From Sedimentisphaerales bacterium (GTDB taxonomy: Bacteria > Planctomycetota > Phycisphaerae > Sedimentisphaerales > Anaerobacaceae): a DNA stretch of 58,400 bases. Below the pieces are notes generated by a model, which was not told where the DNA came from, ran no database searches, and saw nothing but the letters and a program-made list of their open reading frames with translations. Shown here piece after piece: positions 8,968 through 35,399 of the stretch. The position numbers and the translations under genes were made by a program. The first letter of the stretch is position 1. The number at the start of each line of letters is the position of its first letter. The DNA lies in the NCBI GenBank assembly GCA_016932095.1, contig JAFGDN010000047.1, positions 1 through 58,400 on the forward strand. The letters are read 5' to 3'.

Positions 8968-10952
8968 TTTTCTTTGCCGCGGGCTGTCGCTTTTTCGAGC
9001 GTATATTTCAATAAGCCCCCCGCCAGTAATAACTCCCTGTCTCTCTTGGACAGGTTCAGTTTTCCCTTAATTTCGTATGTGCCCGTCTCTTCGATAATCT
9101 TCACCTCGTCTTTATTTTTAATCGTCTCAGTAAATCCATCGATTCGCAGCTTGTCGCCTTCGCTGATTTTATCGTAGTCGCCGGCGTCAGCCAGCTCTAT
9201 CGGCACGACGCAAAAGTTTATCAAGTTCGCCTTATGAATGCGCTCGATACTCTTGGCCAGGACCACTCTCACACCCAGATACATCGGGCAAAGCGCCGCG
9301 TGCTCCCTCGACGACCCCTGCCCGTAGCTTGCCCCCGCAACTATAATTCCCGCCAGGCCGGACGCCTTTACCTTCGCCGCGCGGTTCGCAAACGTGGGCT
9401 TGCCTTTTTCATTGAAGCAATGGAATACAAACGATGAATACTCCGGCACGTTGCTGCGATACTTCAAAAACGCCCCCGCAGGCATTATGTGGTCGGTTGT
9501 AATCTTGTCGCCGCATTTTATCAAGACCTCGCCCTTCAAATCCTTCGATAGCTTTGTCGGCTGCTGTGGAACAACTATCGTCGTCCCGCGAATGACATCC
9601 GCCTTTGCCGCCTCTTTCTCGCTCAAGGGCGGCTCTATCATATTATCATTGACTATAAACTCATCCGGCAGCTCAATTTTCGGGTATTCTATCCTGAGCA
9701 GTTCCGCCAATCGTCTCGGGTCCGTAATATTCCCCGTCAATGCCGACGCCACGGCTGTCTCAGGGCTTACCAAATAAATCATGTCGTCCTTCGTCCCGCT
9801 TCGTCCGCTGAAATTACGGTTAAACGTCCGTAAGCTCGCAATCCCTTCCGCAGGCGAAAGTCCAAGCCCTATGCAGGGCCCGCACGCACATTCGAGAATC
9901 CTTGCGCCCGCCGATATCAGGTCCGTCAGCGCCCCGCTGACCGCCAACATATTCAAGACATCCCTGCTGCCAGGCGCAACCGCAAATTCTACCATTGGAT
10001 TTATCCGTCTTCCCTTCAAGGTTCTGGCCGCCATAATCAAATCACTGAAACTGGAGTTGGTGCAGCTTCCTATTGCAATCTGACCGACCTCCATACCCTC
10101 AATTTCTGAAATCTTTTTGACGTTGTCCGGCGATGACGGGCAGGCCGCCATCGGCTCAAGCTCGCCTAAGTTTATCTCAATCAGCCGGTCGTAAATCGCC
10201 CCCGCGTCCGCACTCAACGCACGGTAGTCATTTTCCCGCTTTTGAGCCGCTAAGAACTTCCGTGTCTGCTCATCGCTGGGAAAAATACTGGTCGTTACGC
10301 CTAATTCCGCCCCCATATTTGTAATCGTCGCCCGCTGCGGCACAGTCAGCGTCGCAACAGCCGGCCCGAAATATTCTATTGCCCAGCCGACGTTTCCCTT
10401 CGTTGTCAGTATTCCCAAAAGTTTCAAAATCACGTCTTTAGCAGCGACCCAGTCGGGCAACCGCCCTGTAAGTTTAACGCCTAATATCTTCGGGCAGGTC
10501 AAATAGAATGGCCCCCCCGCCATAGCCACCGCCACGTCTAACCCGCCTGCCCCAATCGCCAGCGCCCCAATTCCCCCCGCCGTCGGCGTATGCGAATCGC
10601 TTCCCAATAGCGTAATCCCCGGTTTTGCGAACCGCTCTAAGTGAACCTGGTGGCAAATCCCGTTACCCGCTCTGGAATGATAAACCCCGCTTTTGGCCGC
10701 TATCGTCTGTAAATACAAATGGTCGTTATGGTTCTCCGGCCCGAACTGCGCCATATTATGGTCGATGTAGCTGACCGACAAATCCGTCCGGGCTCGACCC
10801 GCGCCAATCGACTCAAACAGCAAAAAAGCCGTCGTTCCCGTCGCGTCCTGCGTCAGTGTCTGGTCAATCTTTATGCCTGTCTGTTCGCCCGCTTCGAGCC
10901 GGCCGTCTTTTAGATGCGCCGCCAATATCTTGTAAACAATCGTTTCCGCCAA
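8964..10952 (-). CDS. Aconitate hydratase (Aquifex-type length)
   Basis: 662 residues; isomerises citrate and isocitrate in the TCA cycle using a [4Fe-4S] cluster. The cluster cysteines are visible in IGSCTNS and ECACGPCIGLGL. Substrate-binding segments LLGSDSHTPTAGGIGALAIG, FNRNFSGRSG and the swivel-domain ASYGQGSSREHAALCP are intact. The length is below the roughly 850-900 residues of AcnA and AcnB and fits the shorter Aquifex-type enzyme. The start codon is TTG, preceded by GGTG; MAETIVYKILAAH is the expected N-terminus, so I keep it. It is first in an overlapping three-gene unit with the LOG-like gene and the secreted unknown. Confidence 0.94.
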   Translation of the reverse strand: MAETIVYKILAAHLKDGRLEAGEQTGIKIDQTLTQDATGTTAFLLFESIGAGRARTDLSVSYIDHNMAQFGPENHNDHLYLQTIAAKSGVYHSRAGNGICHQVHLERFAKPGITLLGSDSHTPTAGGIGALAIGAGGLDVAVAMAGGPFYLTCPKILGVKLTGRLPDWVAAKDVILKLLGILTTKGNVGWAIEYFGPAVATLTVPQRATITNMGAELGVTTSIFPSDEQTRKFLAAQKRENDYRALSADAGAIYDRLIEINLGELEPMAACPSSPDNVKKISEIEGMEVGQIAIGSCTNSSFSDLIMAARTLKGRRINPMVEFAVAPGSRDVLNMLAVSGALTDLISAGARILECACGPCIGLGLSPAEGIASLRTFNRNFSGRSGTKDDMIYLVSPETAVASALTGNITDPRRLAELLRIEYPKIELPDEFIVNDNMIEPPLSEKEAAKADVIRGTTIVVPQQPTKLSKDLKGEVLIKCGDKITTDHIMPAGAFLKYRSNVPEYSSFVFHCFNEKGKPTFANRAAKVKASGLAGIIVAGASYGQGSSREHAALCPMYLGVRVVLAKSIERIHKANLINFCVVPIELADAGDYDKISEGDKLRIDGFTETIKNKDEVKIIEETGTYEIKGKLNLSKRDRELLLAGGLLKYTLEKATARGKEK

Positions 10953-10980
10953 TGTAACACCCTGATTATCATTGTTTAGC

Positions 10981-10999
10981 CCCGCCCCGCAGGGGCGGG
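10981..10999. repeat. GC-rich perfect hairpin upstream of the aconitase gene
   Basis: CCCGCCCC-GCA-GGGGCGGG is a perfect 8-bp stem with a 3-base loop, 29 bases upstream of the aconitase TTG start. It lacks a strong T-run on either side. It could act in the 5' leader or be a dispersed repeat. Confidence 0.5.
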
Positions 11000-11056
11000 T
11001 TTACGTTAATTTATCACAAATCCCCCCTGAAGACAACCGCACTTGCCTCCCGCATC

Positions 11057-11093
11057 AAAAAAAACGGCCATATACCGTTCGGTATATGGCCGT
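11057..11093 (-). terminator. Rho-independent terminator of the prepilin gene
   Basis: A perfect 12-bp stem CGGCCATATACC / GGTATATGGCCG (11065-11076 with 11081-11092) with a four-base loop. On the minus strand it is followed by eight Ts. It lies 23 bases past the stop of the prepilin-like gene. Confidence 0.92.
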
Positions 11094-11115
11094 GTATTAA
11101 CGTTAAGTTAAGTTA

Positions 11116-12186
11116 TTAAATGACCGGAGTTGTGCCGGTATCCTGTGGCTCGTTTACCAGAAGCGAGTCGCCGGCTCCCATCGGTGTTACTTGGTTGTTA
11201 GTGCAACTGTATGCATTTTGACCTGTGTTCCCGGCAGTCCCTCGTGGTATAAAACCTCCACAGGCCTCTCTTTCCCTCTTTACCGGCTTTGGCTGAGTTG
11301 GGATTGGCGGACTAACCCATCTTTGCCAGATATTGTCGTTGTCAATACCGACGTTTGCCGTCTTTGCGAACGTAACGTGGCCATCGACGTAAAGCACGTT
11401 TTGTCCCTCGCGCTGATGGGCAAAGGAGTTATAAACGTTGTCTTTGTCAATATACTGGTTGCTGTTGGTAGTCCAAGTGTCACAAGGCGTTTGCTCCGGG
11501 GAAACCGGTGTCCCACCGGGTGATGTAACGGCGGTGGAAGTTATATAATTAACATTGGTGTCTAACGTCGGATTTCTGTCCGCCGCCATCGGCATACTGG
11601 GGGGGCTGCTGCCGGTTACCTGCCACTGAATTCCATTCGCCCCGCCCGAAGCTAAGGGGGAAAACGGCTGATGATACGAATAGCTGCAATATCTTCCGGG
11701 TGAAAGGCCGAAATCAAAGCATTTCGTAAAATCTTCTACCGTCCCCTTGATTTGCGGAAAATCGTTGAGCCGGAACGTCCTGACTCCAACGTCGCCCTTG
11801 CAGTTAAACTGTTTTACCGAGGTGTCCTCATACCTGACAAGCATGTAGAAAATCGAGCCGATGGTTGCTTTGCAACTTGTTGGTGGGTCTCCTCCTTCGC
11901 ACATGTATACTTGCGTGCACATCTGGCCGTAATCATACCAGAAATTAAGCTGCCCCGTATCAGACCAGGTCGTCTTACCTACGCAGCCGGTCATCGGATA
12001 CGCTTCCTTCGTATCACCGGCGTACAGTAACATCGCCTTGCCGATGCCCGCGAGGTTTGTCCCGCAGACCATCCGGTAGGCAATCATCCTGACCCTTGCC
12101 AGCGCGGGCATCAGGATGCCCATCAGCAGAGCTATGATGGCGATAACGACCAACAGCTCGACCAATGTAAAACCTTTCTTTCTCAT
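11116..12186 (-). CDS. Prepilin-type protein with H-X-DG motif
   Basis: 356 residues. The N-terminus MRKKGFTLVELLVVIAIIALLMG is a canonical type IV prepilin/pseudopilin signal: basic residues, cleavage after Gly5, methylated Phe and Glu at +5. The C-terminal half carries HQREGQNVLYVDGHV, the His-X(n)-Asp-Gly feature of the planctomycete prepilin-associated family; here ten residues separate His from DG, one more than the usual nine. A strong AAAGGAG ribosome binding site lies 8 bases upstream. These proteins are numerous in Planctomycetota and their exact role is unknown. It stands alone with its own terminator and a structured leader. Confidence 0.88.
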   Translation of the reverse strand: MRKKGFTLVELLVVIAIIALLMGILMPALARVRMIAYRMVCGTNLAGIGKAMLLYAGDTKEAYPMTGCVGKTTWSDTGQLNFWYDYGQMCTQVYMCEGGDPPTSCKATIGSIFYMLVRYEDTSVKQFNCKGDVGVRTFRLNDFPQIKGTVEDFTKCFDFGLSPGRYCSYSYHQPFSPLASGGANGIQWQVTGSSPPSMPMAADRNPTLDTNVNYITSTAVTSPGGTPVSPEQTPCDTWTTNSNQYIDKDNVYNSFAHQREGQNVLYVDGHVTFAKTANVGIDNDNIWQRWVSPPIPTQPKPVKREREACGGFIPRGTAGNTGQNAYSCTNNQVTPMGAGDSLLVNEPQDTGTTPVI

Positions 12187-29896: not shown

Positions 29897-30553
29897 ATGT
29901 TCAAGGCCATTCTTTTCGACCTCGACGGCACGCTGCTCAATACGCTCATCGACCTTGCCGAAGCGATGAACGCCTCTCTCGTTTATTTCGGCTTCAAGCC
30001 CCACTCAGTCGAGGCCTTCAAATACTTTGTCGGCGAATCCGTCGAGGTCGAGGCGAGACGTGCCCTCCCCGAATCCGCACGCGACAACCGCACCGTCAAA
30101 AAAGTAGCCGAATACTCGCAGCAAATCTACGCAAATTGCTGGCAAAAGCACACCAAACCATATCCCGGCATTCCCGAACTGCTCGATGAGCTTCAACATC
30201 GCGGATTACGCCTGGCCATTCTCTCAAATAAAATCGACAGTTTTACAAAAATTATGGCCGAAAAGCTCCTCCCGCAATGGCGTTTCGACGTTATCCAGGG
30301 CGCATTACCCGGCGTTGCCCTCAAGCCCCATCCCGATTTGGCCCTGCGAATAGTAACACAACTGAAAATACCATCAGAACAGTTCCTTTATTTAGGCGAT
30401 TCCAATATCGATATGCGAACCGCCGTCGCCGCCGGTATGTATCCCGTCGGCTGTCTGTGGGGCTATCGAACCGCCGATGAATTGCTAAAAGACGGCGCAA
30501 GAGCGCTCATCAGCACCCCCGCAGAACTCCTTAAAATCCTCGAAGCTCAATAA
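29897..30553 (+). CDS. HAD-family hydrolase, phosphoglycolate phosphatase-like
   Basis: 218 residues. HAD motif I is FDLDGT (residues 7-12), motif II is AILSNK, motif III is the Lys in ALKPHPD, and motif IV is YLGDSNIDMRTAVAAG. The helical cap between motifs I and II fits the Gph/PGP subgroup, which removes phosphate from 2-phosphoglycolate formed during DNA repair or oxygenation. Substrate specificity in this family is not safe from sequence alone. It follows ahcY by 16 bases and is probably co-transcribed. Confidence 0.88.
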   Translation: MFKAILFDLDGTLLNTLIDLAEAMNASLVYFGFKPHSVEAFKYFVGESVEVEARRALPESARDNRTVKKVAEYSQQIYANCWQKHTKPYPGIPELLDELQHRGLRLAILSNKIDSFTKIMAEKLLPQWRFDVIQGALPGVALKPHPDLALRIVTQLKIPSEQFLYLGDSNIDMRTAVAAGMYPVGCLWGYRTADELLKDGARALISTPAELLKILEAQ

Positions 30554-30590: not shown

Positions 30591-30630
30591 TTACTGGCCT
30601 TTGACTTTGACGGCCTTTGCGCGTTCGGAC
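30591..30630 (-). pseudogene. Duplicated 3' end of hsp20 (tail only)
   Basis: On the minus strand this reads S-E-R-A-K-A-V-K-V-K-G-Q-stop. The intact hsp20 gene at 32511 ends with the same residues plus one extra V-K pair. At DNA level 35 bases match around a 6-base deletion, and the stop codon is kept. The bases further upstream in the coding sense (30631 onward) do not match hsp20. It forms a direct repeat with 32511-32556, and the two copies bracket the beta-helix gene. Confidence 0.85.
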
Positions 30631-30645
30631 GTGAAACATTTTAAT

Positions 30646-30675
30646 TTGCAATTCACGCTGTGTTTGTTGTATACT
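30646..30675 (+). promoter_or_regulatory. Promoter candidate for the beta-helix gene
   Basis: TTGCAA (30646-30651), 18-base spacer, TATACT (30670-30675), 47 bases before the proposed ATG. Confidence 0.45.
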
Positions 30676-30722
30676 CATAACGAGTGAAAACATTAATATT
30701 GGGGGGCGGGAGAAGGGCTAAA

Positions 30723-32468
30723 ATGAGAAGGGTTATTGTCTCTTTCGCAGTTTTCTGCGTAGCGGCTGTCTGCCAGGCAGAAACAATCTACGTGGACGCC
30801 AACGCACCAGGCGCCAATAACGGTTCAAGCTGGGCCGATGCGTATAAATATCTGCAGGATGCCCTTTGGGCAGCCGAACCGAATCAGGGGATTCAAATCT
30901 GGGTAGCACAGGGCACTTACCGGCCAGATGAAGACATAAATAATCCCGTCGGTACAGATGACCGAACTGCCACCTTTCAACTTAAAAACGGCGTTGCAAT
31001 CTACGGCGGATTCCCTGCTGGCGGCGGAGGTCGTTACCCAAACACATACCAGACAATCCTCAGCGGCGACCTCGACGAAGACGATGAACCTGGTTTTATC
31101 AATAATGGGGAGAACAGTTACCACGTTGTCACCGGCTCTTATACAAATTCGACTGCAATCTTAGACGGTTTTACTATTACCGCCGGCAACGCCAACGGCT
31201 CATCCCCGTATGATTGCGGCGGCGGAATGTACAATGAATCCAGCAATCCGACGCTGGCCAACTGCACTTTCAGCGGCAACTCAGCAAAATATGGCGCTGG
31301 GATGTACAACGAATCCTCCAGCAGCCCGACCCTGGACGACTGCACTTTCAGCGGCAACTCCGCAGACAATGCAGCCGGCGGAATGTATAACTCAAACAAT
31401 AGCAGCCCGACACTGGACGACTGCACTTTCAGCGGCAATGTTGCAAAGGGCTATAGCGCCGGCAGTTCAACAACAACCACCACCAGCGGCGGCGGCTCAA
31501 CAACCACCACAAGCGGCGGTGGTTCAACAACCACCACAAGCGGCGGCGGCGGAATGTACAACAACTCAAGCAGCCCGACTCTGACCAACTGCACTTTCAG
31601 CGGCAACTATGCAGGTTGCTACAGCGGCACCGGAACCTGCGTCAGTTGCGGCGGCGGAATGTACAACAACTCCAGCAGCCCGACGCTGACCAACTGCACT
31701 TTCGCCAACAACTCGGCAAGCGGCTCCGACATACACAGCTCCAGTTCGGGTGGCGGAATGTATAACAACTACAGCAACCCGACGCTGACCAACTGCACTT
31801 TCCGCGGCAACAGTTTAAACGGCGAAGCAAGCACTTCCGGCGGCGGAATGAAAAACTTTTACAGCAATCCGACACTGACCAATTGTTCTTTCAACGACAA
31901 TCGTGCGCCTCACTTTTTAGGCAACGGCTCAGGCGGTGGAATATTTAACGGTTACAGCAGCCCGACCGTAACCAACTGCATATTCTGGGGTAATTATGCT
32001 CCAAACGGGCCTGAGATATATAATTCTGAAACAAGCACTCCAATTGTTACTTTTTCTGACGTTCAGGACGGCTATTCAGGAACAGGTAATATCGATGCAG
32101 ATCCGTGTTTTGTTAATTCTTCGGCGGGCGATTTACGCCTTTTGCCTCGTTCACCCTGCATCGATGCAGGCGATAACACAGCCGTCCCTGAAGGGGTAGA
32201 AACCGACCTCGACGGCAGAGACCGCTTCGCAGATGGGGACTGCAATACTACCGTCATCGTCGATATGGGGGCATACGAATTCACTTATGCTTATTTAGGC
32301 GACTTCGACTCCGATTGCGAAGTTGATTTTACGGACTTTGCAATCCAGGCCGGTTTCTGGTTCACAGATGAGCTTCTTGTGGATATTGCCCCGACGCCCG
32401 CCGGCGACGGCATCGTTGGTATATATGATTTAGCCGTTATTTGCGATAACTGGCTGGCCGGAAAATAA
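30723..32468 (+). CDS. Secreted right-handed beta-helix protein with dockerin-like C-terminus
   Basis: 581 residues from the ATG at 30723, which has AGAAGGG upstream; a GTG at 30684 is less likely. A signal peptide (VIVSFAVFCVAAVCQA) precedes ETIYVDANAPGANNGSSW, the usual start of such proteins. From about residue 165 to 440 a repeat of the type GGGMYN(N)SSSPTLTNCTFSGN recurs about eight times, each a coil of a parallel beta-helix (Chlamydia-PMP/choice-of-anchor style). A Thr/Gly-rich tract interrupts it. The end (GDFDSDCEVDFTDFAIQAGFW...GIYDLAVICDNWLAGK) is a dockerin type I-like EF-hand pair common in Phycisphaerae. Likely extracellular, possibly adhesive or glycan-linked. It is flanked by hsp20-end direct repeats. 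Confidence 0.85.
   Translation: MRRVIVSFAVFCVAAVCQAETIYVDANAPGANNGSSWADAYKYLQDALWAAEPNQGIQIWVAQGTYRPDEDINNPVGTDDRTATFQLKNGVAIYGGFPAGGGGRYPNTYQTILSGDLDEDDEPGFINNGENSYHVVTGSYTNSTAILDGFTITAGNANGSSPYDCGGGMYNESSNPTLANCTFSGNSAKYGAGMYNESSSSPTLDDCTFSGNSADNAAGGMYNSNNSSPTLDDCTFSGNVAKGYSAGSSTTTTTSGGGSTTTTSGGGSTTTTSGGGGMYNNSSSPTLTNCTFSGNYAGCYSGTGTCVSCGGGMYNNSSSPTLTNCTFANNSASGSDIHSSSSGGGMYNNYSNPTLTNCTFRGNSLNGEASTSGGGMKNFYSNPTLTNCSFNDNRAPHFLGNGSGGGIFNGYSSPTVTNCIFWGNYAPNGPEIYNSETSTPIVTFSDVQDGYSGTGNIDADPCFVNSSAGDLRLLPRSPCIDAGDNTAVPEGVETDLDGRDRFADGDCNTTVIVDMGAYEFTYAYLGDFDSDCEVDFTDFAIQAGFWFTDELLVDIAPTPAGDGIVGIYDLAVICDNWLAGK
31461..31547 (+). repeat. 27-base in-frame tandem repeat (GSTTTTSGG)
   Basis: Two clean 27-base units at 31494-31520 and 31521-31547 follow a longer 33-base unit at 31461-31493. 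Each encodes a Thr-rich, Gly-flanked linker inside the beta-helix gene. Unit length is a multiple of three, so copy number can change without a frameshift. Confidence 0.85.
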
Positions 32469-32470
32469 GA

Positions 32471-32502
32471 AAAGCCGCCTGCGAAAGTGCAGGCAGCTTT
32501 TT
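32471..32502. terminator. Bidirectional terminator between the beta-helix gene and hsp20
   Basis: AAAGC-C-GCCTGC, loop GAAAGT, GCAGGC-A-GCTTT then more Ts. The stem has one C-A mismatch and A- and T-runs on its two sides, so it can serve both convergent genes. Confidence 0.88.
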
Positions 32503-32510
32503 CGTTAGGT

Positions 32511-32951
32511 TTATTGGCCTTTGACTTTGACCTTGACGGCCTTTGCGCGTTCGGACTTGGGCAGCTTTATTGTCAGGACGCCGTTTTTGCAGGCAGCGTC
32601 AATCTTCGATGGGTCAATGTCGGAAGGCAAGCTCAAATCGCGCCTGAATGACCCATAGTTGCGTTCGGCGTAGTAATAGCCCTTTTCTTTTTTCTCTTCT
32701 TCGTGCTTTTTCTCGCCGCTTATGGTCAGCGTATTACCCTGGACTGAAATGTCAATATCCTCGGCGTTACAGCCTGGAACCTCGGCCTTGACTGTTAAGG
32801 TATTTTCATCCTCGCTGATGTCAATCGCGGGCCACACGGTTTTTTCGGCTAACGCGGGCCAGCCGCCGAAGAACGAGCTTACCAAATCGTCCATATCCCT
32901 GTGCAAACGTGCCAAATCATTTTTACCTTGTCTTAAACTTAACAGAGTCAT
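32511..32951 (-). CDS. Hsp20/alpha-crystallin small heat shock protein
   Basis: About 146 residues. The alpha-crystallin domain runs from PAIDISEDENTLTVKAEVPG to the closing GVLTIKLPK motif, with the C-terminal extension SERAKAVKVKVKGQ. It forms oligomeric holdase chaperones that bind unfolding proteins. Two ATGs are possible: 32957 lies only two bases after AAGGAGG, whereas 32951 has an 8-base spacing, so I choose 32951. The last codons are duplicated upstream of the neighbouring beta-helix gene. Confidence 0.95.
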   Translation of the reverse strand: MTLLSLRQGKNDLARLHRDMDDLVSSFFGGWPALAEKTVWPAIDISEDENTLTVKAEVPGCNAEDIDISVQGNTLTISGEKKHEEEKKEKGYYYAERNYGSFRRDLSLPSDIDPSKIDAACKNGVLTIKLPKSERAKAVKVKVKGQ

Positions 32952-33212
32952 ATTCATTACCTCCTTTTCTTTTTTTAAATTTATCCGCTTTTTTCCGTTT
33001 TTATCTCACTAAGACCAGGAGCAAAACGCGTGCCAGTTCCCAAAAGCCCTGTTTAAGCGATAAAACCGCCGCTAAACTGCCTTTTGGATGTTTTTTTCAA
33101 CCTCCCAAACTGCCAATTTGACACCCCCGTATCCAATCTTCTAAAACGGTATTGCGGCAAAGGATTAGCTGCGTTACCATATCTGCGTATGTTTTTTAAG
33201 GGGTAAAAGCAA

Positions 33213-33968
33213 ATGACTGAGAAACAAAATAATCTTATGCTCGACCGATTGGAGCAGGTCGTCCGCTCAACAATTAAATCCTTTGCTGAAAAACTGATAG
33301 CCGGGCTAACGGACAATCTCGAAAGTATTACCATTGTAGGAAGCGCCCTGACCGGTGATTTTCATCCCGGCACAAGCGATATAAATATCGTGCTGGTCCT
33401 CGGCAGGGAAAATATCGATTCCCTGAACCTGCTGGCCTCTATGGTCAGGCCGATGAGAAGGGCGAGGGTTTCACCGCCTGTTATTATGACCGCTGAATAT
33501 ATCGAGCGAAGCAAAGACGTCTTCGGAATCGAGTTTTTGGACTTCCAGATGACGCACCAGACCATTTTCGGGCAGGACCCCTTCGTTAATCTTAATTTTG
33601 ACAGGCCTCACGTCCGGCTGCAATGCGAACGCGAGCTAAAAGCGACGCTAATCCGGCTCAGGCAGGGCTACATCGCAAGCTCGGCAAACCGACGTATCGT
33701 TCAGGATATCCTGATTTCGGCGGTAAGGGGACTGGCGCCTCTGCTTCGAGCAATGTTTTGGCTAAAAGGCATAGACCGGCCGGCAAAAACCGCACAATTG
33801 TTCGAAAGGTCGGTCAGTGAATTTTCAATCGAACCGGTTATGTCAACCCTTTACAACAGGGGGACGAAACTCAAACTTGCAAATGACGAATTCGCAAACC
33901 TGTTTGAAAAAGTTTATGCTGCCGTGGATAAACTTGCGAGGATTGTCGATGGGCTTGAGGTCTCCTGA
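33213..33968 (+). CDS. Nucleotidyltransferase-like protein with altered metal motif
   Basis: 251 residues. VGSALTGDFHPGTSDINIVLVLG at about 42-64 is the GS...DxD helix-turn of the polymerase-beta nucleotidyltransferase fold, but the second Asp is Asn (D56-I-N58). The C-terminal half is helical like the substrate-binding part of kanamycin-nucleotidyltransferase-like proteins. The lost carboxylate suggests weak or no catalysis, or a binding role. The ATG has AAGGGG upstream. The stop overlaps the next start by one base, tying it to the TPM and LemA genes. Confidence 0.65.
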   Translation: MTEKQNNLMLDRLEQVVRSTIKSFAEKLIAGLTDNLESITIVGSALTGDFHPGTSDINIVLVLGRENIDSLNLLASMVRPMRRARVSPPVIMTAEYIERSKDVFGIEFLDFQMTHQTIFGQDPFVNLNFDRPHVRLQCERELKATLIRLRQGYIASSANRRIVQDILISAVRGLAPLLRAMFWLKGIDRPAKTAQLFERSVSEFSIEPVMSTLYNRGTKLKLANDEFANLFEKVYAAVDKLARIVDGLEVS

Positions 33969-34756
33969 TGAAACGGACGTTTTGGTTAATATCAGTTTTG
34001 CTTATTTACCCGGCTGTCTGCCTCGGCGAAACGACGCTGCCGATGCCCCGAAACTACGTAGAGGATTACGCCGGCGTCGTTGACCCGGCAGATGAGCAGT
34101 CGCTTAACGCCATATTGCAGGAGCTTGAGCAGAAAACCGGCGCCCAATACATCATCCTGACCGTTCAAAGCACAAGCGGCGTCCCGATTGAGCAGTTCGC
34201 CATCGACCTTGCCCAGGGCTGGCGGCTGGGTCAGAAAGGCAAAGATAACGGCCTGCTTTTTGTCTTTGCCGCACAGGACAGGCGATACCGTTTTGAGGTC
34301 GGCTACGGCCTCGAGGAATTTATCACCGACCAGTATTGCGGCCGCGTCGGCAGAAACATCCTCGTCCCTTATCTCAGGCAAAACCAGTACAGCGCCGGCA
34401 TTTATAAAGCAAATGTCGAAGTCGCCGCTAAAATCGCCGAGCACTATGGTGTAAATCTGACCGGACTGCCTCAACGAACACCGCTGCCGTCAGAAGATTT
34501 TTCAATATGGCCATGCTGTTCGTCTGTTTTGCCTCTGCTGATTCTTATAATTCTGCTGACTGGTATGAGAGGGCGAGGGATGGGTTTTCTGCTATGGCCG
34601 TTTATATTCGGGGCCTTCGGCGGGTTTGGCGGCCATAGGGGCGGGTTCGGCGGCAGCGGCTCGTTCGGAGGAGGCATTTTCGGCGGGGGAGGGGGCGGAT
34701 TCGGCGGCGGTATGGGCGGTGGTTTTGGCGGCGGCGGCGCAAGCGGCGGCTGGTAA
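33968..34756 (+). CDS. TPM-domain membrane protein (YgcG-like) with Gly-rich tail
   Basis: 262 residues. A signal peptide (FWLISVLLIYPAVCLG) precedes a TPM domain (about 22-165): NYVEDYAGVVDPADEQSL, DNGLLFVFAAQDRRYRFEVGYGLEEFITD and YSAGIYKANVEVAAKIAEHYG. TPM proteins are extracytoplasmic and some have weak phosphatase activity or help photosystem repair in plants; the bacterial role is unclear. A membrane helix (about 178-205) is followed by a glycine/phenylalanine-rich tail on the other side. A LemA gene follows, a frequent pairing. Confidence 0.9.
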   Translation: MKRTFWLISVLLIYPAVCLGETTLPMPRNYVEDYAGVVDPADEQSLNAILQELEQKTGAQYIILTVQSTSGVPIEQFAIDLAQGWRLGQKGKDNGLLFVFAAQDRRYRFEVGYGLEEFITDQYCGRVGRNILVPYLRQNQYSAGIYKANVEVAAKIAEHYGVNLTGLPQRTPLPSEDFSIWPCCSSVLPLLILIILLTGMRGRGMGFLLWPFIFGAFGGFGGHRGGFGGSGSFGGGIFGGGGGGFGGGMGGGFGGGGASGGW

Positions 34757-34811
34757 ACGAGGTAAAAGTTAAAATTTAAAAGTAAAAAGGTAAAACTTAA
34801 GGAGTGAAAAA

Positions 34812-35399
34812 ATGAGAGATGCCGGTAAAGTGTGGGTTGCAATTGTCGTTATTTTAATCGTCCTGGGTATCGCGGGGCTGATGTTTTTTAGCTGGTATAT
34901 AGCCGGCTACAACAAGGCGGTCGGTCTCCAGCAGCAGACGCAACAGACCTGGGCGGATATCGACGCGGCGCTGCAGCGCCGGCTGGACCTGATTCCAAAC
35001 CTGGTCAATACGGTCAAGGGTTACGCGACCCACGAGAAAGAGCTGTTCGAATCCATAGCCAAATCGCGGGAAAAGTATTTTGCCGCCGGAACGCCCGCCG
35101 GCAAAATCGAGGCCTCAAATGAGCTTTCAGGACTGCTTTCGCGACTGCTGGTTCTCACTGAGAATTACCCACAGCTTAGGGCAAGCGAAAATTTCCGCGA
35201 CCTCCAGGTTGCCCTGGAGGGCACCGAAAATCGCATAGCCGTGGCGAGGACCCGGTATAACGATGCCGCAAAACAGTTGAACACCTACGCAAAAGAGTTT
35301 TTCGGCTCGTTTTTCTGCCGGCGAGCAAATGTAACGCCCGTCGAATACTTCGAAGCGACGCCGCAGGCCAAAACCGAAGTCCCAAAAGTCGAGTTTTGA
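34812..35399 (+). CDS. LemA family protein
   Basis: 195 residues. One N-terminal membrane helix (about 7-30) is followed by YNKAVGLQQQTQQTWADIDAALQRRLDLIPNLVNTVKGYATHE, the diagnostic LemA core, then long helices through YNDAAKQLNTYAKEFFGSFFC. LemA proteins are membrane-anchored helical bundles of unknown mechanism that commonly travel with TPM genes. AAGGAG lies 9 bases before the ATG. The last of three adjacent genes starting with the nucleotidyltransferase-like gene. Confidence 0.95.
   Translation: MRDAGKVWVAIVVILIVLGIAGLMFFSWYIAGYNKAVGLQQQTQQTWADIDAALQRRLDLIPNLVNTVKGYATHEKELFESIAKSREKYFAAGTPAGKIEASNELSGLLSRLLVLTENYPQLRASENFRDLQVALEGTENRIAVARTRYNDAAKQLNTYAKEFFGSFFCRRANVTPVEYFEATPQAKTEVPKVEF

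Follow-up and report, generated by a model that had tools for sequence, protein, structure and literature searches.

Results

Organization of the hsp20 locus

The DNA analysed here (the window) is a stretch of 58,400 nucleotides that forms one entire contig in the 2.95-Mb, 94-contig genome of a Sedimentisphaerales bacterium, and in it the gene for a secreted right-handed β-helix protein is flanked on each side by a copy of the hsp20 3' end. The locus comprises the following features:

29897–30553, + strand: gph-like HAD phosphatase gene, beyond the orphan end (Pfam HAD_2)
30591–30630, − strand: orphan hsp20 3' end, 12 codons plus stop and one V-K pair short (alignment, pattern search)
30631–32510, no strand: insert between the repeats, 1880 nt, without terminal inverted repeats
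30646–30675, + strand: possible sigma-70 type promoter of the β-helix gene within the insert, TTGCAA-18-TATACT (consensus match only, such matches being no more frequent in the insert than in shuffled sequence)
30723–32468, + strand: secreted right-handed β-helix protein, 581 aa from the likely ATG 30723
32470–32501, no strand: terminator-like hairpin within the insert, common to the β-helix gene and hsp20
32511–32556, − strand: intact hsp20 3' end, the second repeat copy (alignment)
32511–32957, − strand: hsp20, small heat-shock protein, the presumed target gene (Pfam HSP20, E 4e-27)
33213–35399, + strand: nucleotidyltransferase-like ORF, TPM-domain protein and LemA (Pfam, comparison with relatives)

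The reading frame of the β-helix gene (Pfam Beta_helix, E 3e-18) is open from GTG 30684, and ATG 30723 was chosen as the start from a ribosome-binding-like AGAAGG and a signal-peptide-like beginning read in the sequence. The C-terminus of the protein is dockerin-like, yet it falls below the Pfam Dockerin_1 threshold, and positions 31460–31545 of the coding sequence contain low-complexity STTTTTSGGG repeats. A search of viral contigs found no relative of this protein, and one of plasmids only weak ones.

In local alignment the orphan (40 nt) and intact (46 nt) hsp20 ends, both in the same orientation, are identical at 39 of 40 aligned bases, with one 6-nt gap in the alignment. Two statements of an earlier sequence-only reading are thereby confirmed, namely that a 40-base copy of the hsp20 end with one V-K pair deleted is present and that the β-helix gene is bracketed by hsp20 ends in the same orientation. 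The orphan end reads (G)SERAKAVKVKGQ-stop and the intact one SERAKAVKVKVKGQ-stop; since the hsp20 proteins of relatives end in the longer K-V-K-V-K-G form, the loss of two codons is placed on the orphan. Besides an in-frame slip of 6 nt, the window copies show a single, synonymous difference. A 37-nt hsp20-end pattern, allowing up to three mismatches, occurs in the 2.95-Mb genome solely at the two window sites and is absent from 36 relatives searched in the same way. The flank pair scores 30.5, and a score of 18 is reached by only 7 of 5,805 pairs of flanks drawn at random from different contigs. That the pair is a chance match or an assembly error can practically be dismissed: the division of the genome into 94 contigs leaves some room for the latter, but the two copies differ, the pair is unique, and the same pattern recurs in a single-contig record, CP070715.1.

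The hsp20 locus in related genomes

In several genera of the family, hsp20 is divergent from a nucleotidyltransferase-TPM-lemA block. Three congeners (G001–G003) have neither hsp20 nor the nucleotidyltransferase, and the genes that follow gph in them are unrelated to those of the window and different in each of the three. No relative was found in which gph adjoins hsp20, so there is no empty site for the window locus itself. In another relative, G006, hsp20 is cut to its last 28 codons and lemA to its last 43, with a secreted FGE-domain gene between them; the region concerned (L078, 7161–10308) is a mosaic of gene fragments that also holds 145 nt copied from the 5' part of a lipoyl-domain (E2-like) gene.

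The absence of hsp20 from the three congeners and its reduction in G006 are what could speak for a different history, in which hsp20 was duplicated in tandem together with its surroundings and a later deletion left the orphan as all that remains of a second hsp20. We consider this origin, one of two offered by the sequence-only reading, very unlikely: alignment and self-comparison detected no duplicated sequence at the window locus outside the 40 nt, comparable loci of sister species show a single gene and its usual neighbour, and most differences between the two ends are synonymous (see below).

Recurrence of gene-end duplications in the same genome

The same reading had proposed a search for further genes flanked by copies of neighbouring gene ends. 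Comparison of the upstream and downstream flanks of ORFs, together with self-comparison, over the window and 54 other stretches (904 kb) detected eight other inserts with the same architecture, which lie between 42–75-nt copies of the end of a neighbouring gene or tRNA:

HEPN/MNT pair and a 149-aa ORF: ccsA-like 3' end, 48 nt
197-aa membrane ORF: sigma-54 regulator 3' end, 70 nt
HepT-like ORF: acyltransferase 3' end, 61 nt
short insert with no recognised gene: thiH 3' end, 72 nt aligned
IrrE-type peptidase: 3' end of a terminase-like gene (523 aa), 75 nt
ORF6N protein: 5' end of a 145-aa gene, 65 nt
992-aa secreted dockerin protein: xseA 5' end, 56 nt
981-aa glycosidase-like gene, without integrase: tRNA-Arg (tct) 3' end, 42 nt, starting at the anticodon loop (L196, 12873–16413)

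The gene-end class, with the window included and the tRNA-Arg case counted outside it, amounts to nine program matches in the 904 kb, or eight after the removal of one as a dispersed repeat. The match removed (L189, gene 10850–11443) has a repeat encoding SFPRKRESRF, which we take to be part of a dispersed repeat; four further candidates (L183, L168, L184 and L188) were excluded as dispersed or tandem repeats. As part of the genome sample was picked around β-helix and dockerin genes, the fairer figure is that of the 40 stretches chosen irrespective of content (631 kb), in which five protein-gene cases remain. No case was detected in 1.19 Mb of controls from the same family, the same order and other phyla: there were none in 400 kb of G044, none in 400 kb of G013 and none in 394 kb of non-planctomycete loci, where two matches pair positions inside neighbouring genes. 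Within the genus, selected congener loci yielded one gene-end case in 218 kb. Across all cases the repeats are variable in length (31–148 nt, most of them 31–75 nt) and often extend to the stop or start codon.

An explanation restricted to dockerin genes was rejected, as many of the inserts do not encode secreted proteins; flank repeats with a score of at least 18 accompany 2 of 28 dockerin-like ORFs versus 16 of 615 others, which indicates no strong cargo bias. Three other repeat-flanked genes were observed during the survey: a subtilase with dockerin-like and lectin-like domains between exact 22-nt repeats, adjoining an apparent truncated gene and a short transposase-like start (L142, 4494–10480); a nucleotidyltransferase (NTP_transf_8) gene between 87/73-nt repeats to which no gene end was matched (L163, 5188–6586); and a 600-aa subtilase gene between 81-nt repeats at 89% identity (L194, 4926–6981).

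Empty sites and re-used gene ends

Empty sites exist in sister species for four of the eight other inserts. The ccsA-like gene of G002 and G003 runs straight into the gene found past the orphan in this genome; thiH in G002 is 20 nt from its neighbour, without an insert; the terminase-like gene has no peptidase insert in G001–G003; and xseA in G003 directly follows a PEP-CTERM gene. The promoter and start of xseA in relatives match the orphan fragment and not the present xseA start. In this genome the ancestral xseA promoter and start survive solely on that fragment (L139, 2760–4109 and 7662–7830), which carries an in-frame stop.

Two gene ends have been used more than once. At the same ccsA-like end, G001 has a different insert of 0.55 kb (128-aa ORF), and its orphan end runs on into AACCTTGCACTTGGCAAG, which is the sequence natively downstream in G002 and G003; the inner boundaries of the two inserts differ (48 and 31 nt). 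Among 30 planctomycete hsp20 loci, one, in a genome of another genus (CP070715.1), has an insert between copies of the hsp20 end, and this insert encodes a 1045-aa secreted β-helix-like protein without a Pfam match above the cut-off. The copies there are 148 nt long at 81% identity, 39 nt of this being coding, and the inner edge of the repeat is within about two codons of that in the window. The orphan in CP070715.1 leads into the native region upstream of parA, and in a related locus without an insert hsp20 is followed by the parA region, with a sequence that matches the far side of this orphan. The two β-helix proteins do not align to each other. Because of this, and because the window copies are nearly identical, we do not take the two loci to represent one inherited insertion. 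Since the hsp20 and ccsA-like ends have each been used in two genomes, some site preference may exist.

Divergence of the two ends

Over eight protein-coding pairs of orphan and intact ends, the differing codons comprise 33 synonymous and 15 non-synonymous changes. Polarisation against congeners assigns 12 synonymous and 7 non-synonymous changes to the orphan branch, and 9 and 1 to the intact branch. The proportion on the orphan branch (12 of 19 synonymous) compares with a neutral expectation of about 24% (p about 3e-4), and a simpler test by codon position gave no significant departure from a neutral orphan (p 0.10), in both cases with small numbers and with reading frames set by hand. The terminase-like case is an exception, as it is the intact end and not the orphan that resembles the end found in relatives. 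Because the differences are mostly synonymous across cases, the two ends look like alleles of two lineages and not like a gene with its decaying copy. In most cases they seem, as far as codon patterns can tell, to have diverged as working gene ends in separate lineages and then met, the orphan having relaxed afterwards.

Search for recombination machinery

No integrase or transposase domain was recognised in the inserts examined, and the whole genome contains only three tyrosine-recombinase genes. Terminal inverted repeats showed no excess over shuffled ends in nine inserts, the best score (that of the tRNA-Arg insert) merely equalling its own shuffled maximum, and no common core was seen among the repeats by inspection. 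Ku was not found in the genome or in its closest relatives. ComEC, which is found in most bacteria, is encoded. The range of repeat lengths is not that of the constant short target duplication of insertion sequences.

Discussion

Our results show insertion with gene-end duplication at several loci of one planctomycete genome, with recurrence, empty sites at loci other than that of the window, and inserts free of integrases. The window locus probably arose like the others, judging from its identical anatomy. The explanation that we think somewhat more probable than all others combined is an acquired insertion with gene-end duplication, assisted by homology, at the window as elsewhere. A segment of about 1.9 kb, acquired horizontally and comprising the β-helix gene, its possible promoter and the terminator, would have entered at the 3' end of hsp20, and integration would have left two hsp20 ends, one completing hsp20 and the other displaced as an orphan beside gph. 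We infer that the incoming DNA came from a related lineage and carried, besides the insert, the neighbouring gene end in the form proper to that lineage, and that homology at this end would have allowed joining without an integrase. The duplications would be found at gene ends because only insertions that duplicate a gene end leave the target usable. Several points count against this explanation. The window has no empty-site relative, the codon test is small, and in the terminase-like case it is the intact end that resembles the end of relatives. The few differences within the window pair are compatible with copies that were identical at birth, and if joining took place at random on one side, repeat lengths should be widely spread, yet most are between 31 and 75 nt.

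The main rival is a strict insertion with long target duplication, in which a wide staggered cut is filled in around captured DNA, so that both copies derive from the recipient and are identical at the start. The variable repeat lengths at many unrelated sites and the single copy at empty sites agree with such a cut, as does an anatomy like that of the Helicobacter cases, whose duplications are described as long and variable, on the order of 100 bp (PMC3874152). However, the ends differ largely by synonymous changes on both branches, unlike a neutral relic, and the obvious end-joining factor, Ku, was not found. We favour homology-assisted uptake over this rival, to which we would still grant a small but real chance. 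Site-specific cassettes, inserted by a recombinase acting in trans on circles that bear a duplicate of the target gene's end, like integrative elements at tRNA genes, are improbable in our view. The insert between copies of a tRNA-Arg 3' end that start at the anticodon loop, the re-use of two gene ends and the frequent extension of repeats to a stop or start codon would all be expected of them, but there is no integrase in the inserts examined and there are few tyrosine recombinases genome-wide, neither terminal inverted repeats nor a shared core were seen, and the inner boundaries at the ccsA-like gene do not coincide. Of the other origin suggested by the sequence-only reading, a site-specific insertion that restores the target end, the restoring insertion holds as a general event in this genome, given the recurrent gene-end duplications and the empty sites in relatives; its site specificity is not borne out by the inverted-repeat, core and integrase searches.

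Insertion with long target duplication was reportedly described for restriction-modification genes of Helicobacter pylori by Nobusato and co-workers in 2000. Our cases resemble it in that small gene units, not linked to any known mobile element, lie between long and variable direct target repeats, with an empty site in a relative, and in that some of the planctomycete cargo consists of toxin-antitoxin genes. Unlike the Helicobacter cases, they come from a different phylum, much of their cargo is made up of secreted β-helix, dockerin and glycosidase-like genes, the repeats concentrate on gene ends, and the two ends resemble diverged alleles. According to reviews, some restriction-modification systems insert with long, variable target duplications on the order of 100 bp (PMC3874152; PMC1643837). 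Homology-facilitated illegitimate recombination has been demonstrated both in species with natural competence and in Escherichia coli conjugation (PMC3240628), and homology-assisted illegitimate recombination has been put forward to account for small variable segments in other bacteria (PMC2884548). Its one-sided homology, with none on the other side, would explain the integrase-free addition of genes beside a conserved gene. That process is usually described with replacement or loss of recipient DNA; here, in contrast, a short recipient gene end is kept, and the repeats are mostly confined to a narrow span of lengths.

Genomic islands at the 3' ends of tRNA or other genes are inserted by tyrosine recombinases. 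They share with our inserts the direct repeats of the target-gene end and the restored target, including one tRNA-Arg case, whereas our inserts have no integrase, many unrelated targets and no common core. In the minimal mobile elements of Neisseria, different single genes are swapped between the same conserved neighbours, probably by transformation, a feature that our cases may share; to our knowledge, a leftover gene end is no part of their description. What our cases add to insertion with long target duplication and to homology-assisted recombination is a bias towards gene ends, two ends that have diverged like alleles, and the repeated use of the ends of hsp20 and of the ccsA-like gene. 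A bolder extension, which we put forward as an unlikely though conceivable one, is that a family-wide process free of integrases adds single genes or toxin-antitoxin pairs at preferred ends (hsp20, ccsA-like), each segment bringing a compatible end and the repeat serving as a reusable address for the next transfer.

The entry of single genes into bacterial chromosomes without mobile-element machinery is poorly documented. Here, about nine scars in one genome record the positions of the joints and suggest the lineage of the ends, and the empty sites found in sister species for some of them make the question of entry testable by comparative genomics. Our results suggest that short gene-end relics could mark acquired genes, including those for secreted proteins and toxin-antitoxin pairs, and they point to a recurring, integrase-free route by which genes may be added without breaking those in which they land.
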